Shown in pieces: positions 24,229 through 29,161 of a DNA stretch of 64,000 bases; within the stretch, counting starts at the first letter, position 1; every line of letters begins with the position of its first letter. Position numbers and translations under genes: made by a program. Location: positions 1 to 64,000 of the forward strand of contig CACIKF010000004.1 in assembly GCA_902587165.1 (NCBI GenBank), read 5' to 3'. Under the pieces are notes generated by a model. It was not told the DNA's origin. It saw only the letters and a list, made by a program, of their open reading frames with translations, and did no database searches. This stretch comes from Puniceicoccaceae bacterium. GTDB taxonomy: Bacteria; Verrucomicrobiota; Verrucomicrobiia; Opitutales; Coraliomargaritaceae.

Positions 24229-24849
24229 ATGAATACGACTCTCATACTCATTCTCACTCCATTCATTACAGCTGGCATCGGCTGGCTAACGAATTGGGTG
24301 GCCATACAAATGCTTTTCCATCCACGCAAATCGATTTGTGTATTCTTTTGGCATTGGCAAGGGCTCATTCCGCGTCGCCAGAAGCAGTTGGCTGCAGAAT
24401 CAGCGGAAATAATTGAGCGAGAAATTCTCCAGCAACACATGATTCTGCATGAAATAAAGAAAATAGAGCTCGGTCCTTACTTAGAAGATACCGCCAAAAC
24501 AATTGTCTGGGAGCGCATTGGTCCCCAACTTCGCGCCATCCCGCTACTTGGTGGCTTTATTAACGACGGCACCCTTGCGAAATTCGAAGTTATTGCCGCA
24601 GCATCGATGAAGGAAGAAGCTGGTCCACTGATGGAAAAAGTGGCCACCCAATTTGAAGATTCGGTCAATTTAAAGCAAATGATTGAGGATAACATTGCTG
24701 CATTCGATCTAGACCGTCTCGAGGCTATCGTTAAGCAAGTCGCCAGCAGCGAGTTTCGTACTATCGAACGCCTCGGTGCCCTCCTAGGCTTTGTTATAGG
24801 TTGCTTACAAGTCACCCTCTTCTGGGTAACTGGTTCGATACAATTTTAA
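24229..24849 (+). CDS. DUF445 family membrane protein
   Basis: A 206-residue protein with an N-terminal transmembrane segment and the DUF445 hallmark GIGWLTNWVAIQMLFHP (about 16-33), then RKSICVFFWHWQGLIPRRQ, a long soluble helical region and a C-terminal transmembrane helix (about 183-202, FVIGCLQVTLFWVTG). Family members sit in the inner membrane; function is poorly known. The stop is 9 bases before ispG, so the pair is probably co-transcribed. It is shorter than many relatives but has both membrane ends. Confidence 0.85.
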   Translation: MNTTLILILTPFITAGIGWLTNWVAIQMLFHPRKSICVFFWHWQGLIPRRQKQLAAESAEIIEREILQQHMILHEIKKIELGPYLEDTAKTIVWERIGPQLRAIPLLGGFINDGTLAKFEVIAAASMKEEAGPLMEKVATQFEDSVNLKQMIEDNIAAFDLDRLEAIVKQVASSEFRTIERLGALLGFVIGCLQVTLFWVTGSIQF

Positions 24850-27002: not shown

Positions 27003-28178
27003 GTGTTTAATTCAAACCTAGAGGCCGCACACAATGCTCTTCATACTTTTTTGCCACGTGCCGGCGGCGAATATGCTAGGACTAGAAACTATGACTATGG
27101 ATCCATGCAGCGTGAAAACGTGTCTATGTTGTCCCCATGGATACGACTTCGCTTACTTTCGGAATGGGAAATTATAAATGCCGTTTTACAGTTTCACTCA
27201 AAGTCATCTGCGTCTAAGTTCATCGACGAGGTTTGTTGGCGTACTTATTGGAAAGGCTGGCTAGAGTTAAGGCCCTCGGTTTGGGAGGATTATCTAGTAG
27301 AATTAGCTAAGGATCGAGAACGCTGCGAAAAAAATATAGGCTACATTCAGATGATTGAGGCACGTAGCGGTATACCCGCAATGGATGCTTGGACTAGTGA
27401 GTTGATCGAGACTGGATACCTACATAACCACGCTCGTATGTGGTATGCTAGTATCTGGGTTCACACACTCAAGTTACCTTGGACGCTAGGCGCGGAATTT
27501 TTTTTAAGACACTTACTCGATGGTGATGTCGCCTCTAATACACTAAGCTGGCGCTGGGTGGCAGGGCTTCACACTTTAGGTAAATTTTACCTAGCGCAAA
27601 AATCAAACATTTGTAAATTCACAGCGGGACGTCTTGAAGTTAATATACCTTTAGCAACTGAGTCGGCGCTGGTTGAGACTAGTCACAGAGTCGTTACACC
27701 CAAAAGATTACCAAGCTATGATAAGGCAATCCCCAATTGCCGCATCGGCCTACTTGTACACGAAGAGGACCTGTCGGCAGTAAATTGGCTGTCCGATGGA
27801 TGTGAATTAGTTGCAGTCGCAGGTCTGCTTTCATCTGCTGCCTATCGGAAATATGGTATTGAAGAAAGAGTGATAAAATTCCGCTCTGACTGCATGCGTT
27901 CTGCGTTACCAAAAAAAGCAGAAATATTTATTTGCCCTAACAAATTCGCCGAATGGGCTCATATTCAAAACTTAGATGCAGTCCTAATGGCTGAAGTCCC
28001 CGTTGGTATCTGTAAAGATGTAATTTCAGATTTGGAGTCTTCGCTCGCCCCATATGAGATTAAAATTATCAAACGACGTCATTGGTGGGATACTCATTTT
28101 TATCCAGCGGCGCGTGCGGGGTTTTTTAATTTCAAAAAATCGATACCTTCAGCGCTTGCTAAACTTAAGCAAACATGA
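27003..28178 (+). CDS. Photolyase/cryptochrome-like FAD-binding protein with swapped domain order
   Basis: Residues 1-220 are the helical FAD-binding domain of photolyases: LPRAGGEYARTRNYDYG, a FIDEVCWRTYWKGWLE stretch, then HNHARMWYASIWVHTL and LDGDVASNTLSWRWVAG, the FAD/lesion-binding core. The usual N-terminal alpha/beta (antenna) domain is absent in front. Instead residues about 240-391 form an alpha/beta region (CRIGLLVHEEDLSAVNWL to the RRHWWDTHFYPAARAGFFNFKK end) that looks like it could replace it, as in a circular permutation. Relatives exist in marine bacteria annotated as FAD-binding domain proteins, as far as I recall; repair activity is not established. GTG start at 27003; the end overlaps the next gene as ATGA. 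Confidence 0.78.
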   Translation: MFNSNLEAAHNALHTFLPRAGGEYARTRNYDYGSMQRENVSMLSPWIRLRLLSEWEIINAVLQFHSKSSASKFIDEVCWRTYWKGWLELRPSVWEDYLVELAKDRERCEKNIGYIQMIEARSGIPAMDAWTSELIETGYLHNHARMWYASIWVHTLKLPWTLGAEFFLRHLLDGDVASNTLSWRWVAGLHTLGKFYLAQKSNICKFTAGRLEVNIPLATESALVETSHRVVTPKRLPSYDKAIPNCRIGLLVHEEDLSAVNWLSDGCELVAVAGLLSSAAYRKYGIEERVIKFRSDCMRSALPKKAEIFICPNKFAEWAHIQNLDAVLMAEVPVGICKDVISDLESSLAPYEIKIIKRRHWWDTHFYPAARAGFFNFKKSIPSALAKLKQT

Positions 28179-29161
28179 GCTATTCTATGAAAGAAATTTA
28201 CAAAAATTCTATGCTAGGTTCACTTGCTGCCGATGCACTATCCATGCCAGTACACTGGTATTACGACACTCAAAAGCTAGATCGTGACTATGGCCGACTG
28301 ACTGGCTACGTGGCGCCTCAAAATCCACATAGCGACAGCATCCTTTGGCGCTCACGCTACATCCCTCGCAACGCGCGGGGTAACATACTGCACGACCAAA
28401 TCAAATATTGGGGCCAACGCGAAATCCACTATCATCAGTTCTTGGCTGCGGGAGAAAACACGATTAACTATCAATTAGGCAAAGAACTTTACCTGACTAT
28501 ACTTGAATATGGTGTCTACGATTCTGACAAATGGCTGGAGCGCTATATTAAGCGCATGCTCGATGGCGGATGGCATAAGGACACCTATCTAGAAGAATAT
28601 CACAGGGCTTTTTTTGATAACTATGCCAAAGGCTTAGCTCCTATAGATTGTGGGATTGACGATCTTCATATAGGTGGACTCAGTCATGTACCCTGTCTTT
28701 TATCAGGACTTACTGAAATAGGCGTGGTCGATCTCGATGAGCAATTATTGCAGGTGGAAAAGCACGTTCGATTGACGCATCGTAACCAACATGTGAGCGA
28801 TGCCGCCGCAGCAATGACTCATATCCTTTATTCTCTTAGAGAAGGCCTTGACCTGCGAAAGGCACTGGACAGCCATGCGAAACCTTGGGCGTCTGCAGGG
28901 CAGTTTGACACATGGACCCATTTTTCAGATAGGACTGTCATCGGGCGCCAGCTCACGATGGCTTGCTACTTGCCTGAATCATTCACTGCGAGTCTCTATT
29001 TGTGTTGGAAATACGCGGAAGACTTTAGCGCAGGTATCATAGCGAATGCACATTGTGGCGGCGATAATTGCCATCGCGGTGCAGTGGTTGGCGCATTACT
29101 TGGTGCGGCCAATGGCGTGCCGAAAAAATGGATAAAGGGTTTAATTAAAGTTCCTTTCTGA
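28175..29161 (+). CDS. ADP-ribosylglycohydrolase family protein with altered metal site
   Basis: A 328-residue protein with the ADP-ribosylglycohydrolase fold: NSMLGSLAADALSMPVHWYYD at the N-terminus and NAHCGGDNCHRGAVVGALLGA near the C-terminus. In active DraG/ARH enzymes the first metal motif is T-D-D-T and the last is a D-x-D (GGDTDT-like). Here the matching places read AGENT (about 91-95) and GGDNC, so two or more metal-binding Asp are replaced. It may therefore bind or hydrolyse a different substrate, or none. The ATG lies inside the stop region of the photolyase-like gene (ATGA), a strong sign of coupled translation and shared function. Converges on parC. Confidence 0.82.
   Translation: MSYSMKEIYKNSMLGSLAADALSMPVHWYYDTQKLDRDYGRLTGYVAPQNPHSDSILWRSRYIPRNARGNILHDQIKYWGQREIHYHQFLAAGENTINYQLGKELYLTILEYGVYDSDKWLERYIKRMLDGGWHKDTYLEEYHRAFFDNYAKGLAPIDCGIDDLHIGGLSHVPCLLSGLTEIGVVDLDEQLLQVEKHVRLTHRNQHVSDAAAAMTHILYSLREGLDLRKALDSHAKPWASAGQFDTWTHFSDRTVIGRQLTMACYLPESFTASLYLCWKYAEDFSAGIIANAHCGGDNCHRGAVVGALLGAANGVPKKWIKGLIKVPF

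Follow-up and report, generated by a model that had tools for sequence, protein, structure and literature searches.

The locus described here raises the question of whether a photolyase-like protein with apparently swapped domains and the ADP-ribosylglycohydrolase (ARH) homologue encoded directly after it are functionally related and, if so, what the second protein does. The window, that is, the whole stretch of DNA that was analyzed, comprises 64,000 nucleotides of contig CACIKF010000004.1 from a marine Puniceicoccaceae bacterium (Verrucomicrobiota; assembly GCA_902587165.1). An earlier note on this DNA had reported two open reading frames, gene 1 and gene 2, whose ATGA junction implied coupled translation. 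Both frames were found (Table 1), and the ATG of gene 2 (28175-28177) overlaps the TGA of gene 1 (28176-28178), an overlap that was kept in six other loci (L005, L008, L011, L014, L015 and L022). The pair is preceded by ispG (GcpE) and followed, on the opposite strand, by a gene that reads as a topoisomerase subunit. Upstream of ispG, positions 24229-24849 encode a 206-aa membrane protein, which in its best stretch resembles the DUF445 model at its start only.

Table 1. Position of the two genes and of their domains and motifs in the window.
Feature	Position	Strand	Basis
Gene 1, NewPHL-type (inverted-topology) photolyase, 391 aa, GTG start	27003..28178	+	ORF, PF03441, AlphaFold model
Gene 1, N-terminal FAD-binding helical domain (~residues 1-225)	27003..27677	+	PF03441, residue alignment to 1dnp, structure
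Gene 1, C-terminal Rossmann-type alpha/beta domain (~residues 246-391)	27738..28175	+	hhalign with controls, AlphaFold, structural matches
ATGA stop/start overlap of gene 1 and gene 2	28175..28178	+	Sequence
Gene 2, photolyase-associated ARH-fold protein (PF03747), 328 aa	28175..29161	+	ORF, Pfam, alignments, neighbourhoods
HWYYD motif, gene 2 residues 27-31, at the catalytic Glu flap position of canonical ARH	28253..28267	+	Orthologue alignment, distant relatives
GENTIN motif, gene 2 residues 93-98, at the place of the metal-binding TDD of DraG	28451..28468	+	Alignment to DraG (3g9d)
GGDNCHRG motif, gene 2 residues 295-302, where canonical ARH has GGDxDT/S with the bridging Asp	29057..29080	+	Alignments to MJ1187 and DraG

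The only Pfam match of gene 1 was PF03441 (residues 73-191, E 6.7e-21, model positions 1-121 of 203), and PF00875 was absent from gene 1 and from all 44 relatives scanned with Pfam. An AlphaFold2 model built from a 44-sequence alignment reached a pLDDT of 95 and a pTM of 0.92, and its residues 1-224 matched the FAD domains at the C-terminal end of photolyases and cryptochromes with Z scores of 14.7-17.3 (for example, 2j4d residues 248-497). Because a profile search of PDB sequences with the C-terminal domain gave chance matches only, this domain was analyzed by structure comparison. Folded alone from its own alignment, the region of residues 232-391 formed a five-stranded Rossmann-type domain (pLDDT 91) that superposed on the N-terminal alpha/beta domains of photolyases (1iqr, Z 10.2 over 136 residues at 3.9 A; 6kii, Z 9.4 over 142 residues). 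A Rossmann or universal-stress-protein-type domain unrelated to photolyases would account for the Foldseek search of the PDB, in which universal stress proteins and CoaD came out on top, with no match at E <= 0.001, and single-domain universal stress proteins did reach a Z of about 8.5. Their alignments, however, ended near residues 128-138, whereas those of the photolyases, which aligned best, extended to the terminal helices (model 15-160). Moreover, a profile-profile alignment (hhalign) with photolyase N-terminal domains was colinear and in the expected register along the full length of the domain (157 columns), with a score of 16.5 (P 0.0035), whereas the reversed profile and 60 column-shuffled profiles scored no more than 9.6. 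We therefore consider an unrelated domain very improbable. The matches of the FAD domain, the photolyase-first structural ranking and a profile alignment that beats its shuffles together support the view that the modelled C-terminal domain is the equivalent of the N-terminal domain of ordinary photolyases, so that the swap of domains proposed from the sequence held up. Class I, II and III, DASH and FeS-BCP photolyases have the alpha/beta domain before the FAD domain, whereas in gene 1 the order is reversed and the FAD domain begins at about residue 1.

The residues with which photolyases contact the lesion and FAD were kept in gene 1 and were invariant across its family in the 44-sequence alignment. 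In the alignment to 1dnp, E76, W79, N142, R145, M146, D173 and N179 corresponded to E274, W277, N341, R344, M345, D372 and N378 of the E. coli enzyme. W183 and W160, equivalent to W382 and W359 of E. coli, formed a Trp dyad that was invariant in 44 of the 44 aligned relatives, and C108 stood where the E. coli triad has its third Trp, W306. The earlier note regarded photolyase relatives of this form as uncharacterized; this did not hold, for the anatomy is that of NewPHL/SPL, photolyases which, according to PMC13274461 citing Emmerich 2020, act on CPDs in single strands and have their domain topology inverted, and electron transfer in DsNewPHL proceeds via a Trp dyad (PMC8948257). The literature on the class, as cited in PMC13274461, includes Emmerich et al. 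2020 NAR 48:12845 and Xu et al. 2021 MBE 38:4505, and its named members include D. shibae A8LJA9 and M. mesophilicum M7YZC8. Given the inverted domains, the Trp dyad, the invariant catalytic residues and the full-length homologues in alphaproteobacteria (Ruegeria TM1040, 39%; Asticcacaulis, 39-40%), gene 1 is, as judged by the conserved anatomy of its sequence and model, a NewPHL-class photolyase, a class whose substrate and topology have already been published, and it is predicted to repair CPDs as the published NewPHL do. It shares with NewPHL/SPL the FAD domain first, the alpha/beta domain second, the Trp dyad and the same alphaproteobacterial groups, but differs in lying in Verrucomicrobiota and in being translationally coupled to an ARH-fold gene. 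Taken alone, gene 1 thus adds one more member to a published class.

Homologues of gene 1 were found in Opitutae, alphaproteobacteria (SAR116, Asticcacaulis, Roseovarius, Ruegeria), gammaproteobacteria and planctomycetes. An assembly error as the origin of gene 1 was ruled out by 64 related loci in other genomes. A plasmid search revealed NewPHL homologues on alphaproteobacterial megaplasmids, and the phage matches to gene 1 were ordinary photolyases only. The genome of the window itself also encodes two ordinary photolyases. Two 378-aa frames with a NewPHL-like partial match to PF03441 (G267:C1:1281617-1282006 and G354:C17:35466-35858) lay about 1.3 kb, match to match, from an ordinary photolyase; they fell below the NewPHL profile cut-off and may represent a divergent branch.

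Gene 2 matched PF03747 over nearly the whole profile (residues 12-315, 129.6 bits against a cut-off of 26.2, E 2.4e-37) and resembled DraG and MJ1187 weakly by sequence. Characterized ARH enzymes all use a binuclear metal centre, and ADP-ribosyl bonds are the target of ARH-fold enzymes (PMC7050489). When gene 2 was aligned with DraG and MJ1187 and the metal site was numbered as in human ARH3 (E41, T76, D77, D78, D314, D316 and T317), only T96 and D297 were retained; E41 was replaced by H27, D77 by I/L97, D78 by N98 and D316 by C/A299, and H300 stood in place of T317. Gene 2 thus belongs to the ARH/DraG family by its Pfam score but departs from it in carrying HWYYD, GENT and GGDNCHRG and in the replacement of most metal-site ligands. 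The ADP-ribose-type chemistry suggested in the earlier note is thus not supported: gene 2 carries the family signature, but classical ADP-ribose hydrolysis by it is doubtful because most of the canonical ligands are absent from its sequence. Even so, more than 90 positions were invariant across 11 orthologues, which points to strong constraint and probably to a rebuilt site. The invariant motifs were rich in His, Asp, Glu and Tyr (HWYYD, itself invariant or nearly so, HYHQF, WHxDTYxEEYHR, CGIxDxHIGG and GGDNxHRG). Non-canonical relatives of ARH include J1-crystallin and selenoprotein J, which are jellyfish lens and fish proteins, respectively.

Analysis of gene neighbourhoods showed that gene 2 adjoins more than one kind of photolyase. 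NewPHL was followed by ARH, with the conserved ATGA, in the family of the window; ARH preceded NewPHL in two other families of the same class (G321, G363, G377 and G410); and DPRP was followed by ARH in G099 and G311, in neither of which NewPHL was found. A DASH-like photolyase adjoined ARH in G036, and in G410 it formed a run of three genes together with ARH and NewPHL. In 8 of the 26 genomes with a close orthologue, and in 4 of 10 families, the distance between gene 2 and a photolyase-family gene was no more than 3 kb, compared with expected values of 0.23 and 0.11. A chance overlap of gene 1 and gene 2 was ruled out by the conservation of the overlap and by the several gene arrangements. 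Gene 2 had no adjacent photolyase in G021, G254 and G267; it adjoined a thioesterase in G021 and an amine oxidase in G360, again with no photolyase adjacent. In G012, NewPHL was truncated to residues 2-122, the same piece being present on two contigs (L109 2425-2832 and L155 5904-6311), and in G011 (L078) it was split between two frames; ARH was intact in both genomes, indicating that gene 2 can outlive its neighbour.

To relate the presence of gene 2 to that of NewPHL, we used a sample of 387 Verrucomicrobiota genomes, in which a close gene 2 orthologue was defined by E < 1e-80. Such an orthologue was present in 26 genomes, NewPHL in 27 and both in 15. NewPHL accordingly occurred in 15 of the 26 genomes with a close orthologue and in 12 of the 361 without one (p 2.5e-13), and within the window's family (36 genomes) NewPHL was present in 18, gene 2 in 14 and both in 13 (Fisher p 4e-5), both p-values ignoring kinship and being inflated by the relatedness of the genomes. 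A PF03441 photolyase was present in all 26 close-orthologue genomes, as against 124 of 387 (32%) overall. By contrast, gene 2 was absent from the alphaproteobacterial, gammaproteobacterial and planctomycete genomes behind the NewPHL loci, so that it is not required for NewPHL as such. Inside Verrucomicrobiota the pairing thus withstands the refuting condition set in the earlier note, namely homologues that do not co-occur with the second gene, but it was not seen in the NewPHL genomes searched outside them. Searches of plasmids and of viral contigs revealed no plasmid carrying gene 2 and no viral contig encoding a relative.

Photolyases are usually seen as self-sufficient single-protein repair enzymes. 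Since the neighbourhoods of gene 2 are conserved and yet differently arranged, a functional link between gene 2 and photolyases is supported, and our preferred reading, to which we assign a probability of about 0.6, is that gene 1 is a NewPHL photolyase and gene 2 a dedicated accessory of photolyase-type flavoproteins in Verrucomicrobiota. Gene 1 would then split cyclobutane pyrimidine dimers under blue/UV-A light, probably in single-stranded DNA, with the FAD in its N-terminal helical domain being photoreduced through the dyad W183-W160 and the C-terminal alpha/beta domain closing the FAD pocket. Gene 2, an ARH fold with a putatively rebuilt active site, would serve photolyase-type flavoproteins. 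It might bind a moiety that resembles ADP-ribose, for which the ADP half of FAD or a related nucleotide product is the most plausible candidate, and might help to load, retain or recycle the photolyase flavin, or form complexes with photolyases. This mechanism is a tentative guess from fold and neighbours, more likely wrong than right. FAD handling is preferred because the three photolyase types and the recurrent amine oxidase share FAD, and the ADP half of FAD resembles the ligand of ARH.

Against the accessory reading count the NewPHL genomes outside the phylum, which do without gene 2, and the genomes in which gene 2 has no photolyase next door. It also has to be weighed against the possibility that gene 1 and gene 2 merely share a neighbourhood devoted to photo-oxidative stress, with no direct molecular relation. 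A UbiB/ABC1 kinase, an HpnE-like amine oxidase, a 4HBT thioesterase and other photolyases do recur nearby, and the genomes in which gene 2 stands beside the thioesterase or the amine oxidase point the same way; a shared neighbourhood explains less readily why the ATGA is conserved in the window's family and why gene 2 adjoins three photolyase types in differing orders, and we regard it as possible without favouring it. Somewhat less probable still is that gene 2 actively hydrolyses N- or O-glycosidic bonds in nucleotides or nucleic acids, acting through a non-canonical site on ADP-ribosylated DNA or RNA or on a photodamaged nucleoside, in the same damage response as the photolyase. The invariant residues, with many His, Asp, Glu and Tyr in motifs, suggest a real active site, and cleavage of ADP-ribosyl bonds is what ARH-fold enzymes do (PMC7050489), but several canonical metal ligands are replaced, and the PADLOC defence models had no match to either protein at E <= 0.1.

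A different parallel comes from trypanosomes. The small-subunit assembly intermediate of the trypanosome mitoribosome (7pua; also 7pub) contains a chain annotated as "DNA photolyase, putative" (Ff) together with the ARH-type mt-SAF23 (FP), to which gene 2 is related in sequence, and the gene 1 model matched 7pub_Ff with a Z of 15.4. Like gene 2, Trypanosoma brucei mt-SAF23 (6sga/7pua FP) departs from GGDxDT, with GGxxCxR in its place, and it has a photolyase-like chain in the same assembly; it differs in being a mitoribosome assembly factor with only remote sequence similarity to gene 2. Gene 2 might accordingly be a non-enzymatic structural partner, a similar photolyase-ARH pair having been recruited to mitoribosome assembly in trypanosomes. 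We consider this improbable, since FP and Ff are two among many assembly factors and may have met by chance, and the sequence relation between FP and gene 2 is weak (E ~0.001-0.008). It is equally far from our expectations, if not slightly further, that gene 2 is an ancient dedicated accessory subunit of photolyase-family flavoproteins whose rebuilt active site takes up FAD or a photoproduct nucleotide, and that the trypanosome pair is what is left of this partnership.

In the literature searched, no paper combining a photolyase with an ADP-ribosylglycohydrolase was found, and an ARH-fold protein conserved as the companion of photolyases of several types appears to be undescribed there. With members beside three kinds of photolyase, and close members only in genomes of the phylum-wide sample that have a photolyase, the gene 2 family would be a candidate accessory factor. 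If the accessory reading is true, the role of gene 2 would open a first way into the function of non-canonical ARH-fold proteins that lack the catalytic metal site.

Other genes recurred in the neighbourhoods as well. A UbiB/AarF-type ABC1 kinase gene was found repeatedly close to NewPHL, in alphaproteobacteria as well as in Verrucomicrobiota (L098, L099, L100 and L222 8822-10174). In Opitutae, a 4HBT/YbgC-like thioesterase gene recurred beside NewPHL or gene 2 (L011, L014, L017, L113, L007 and L009), in several cases together with an HpnE-like amine oxidase.
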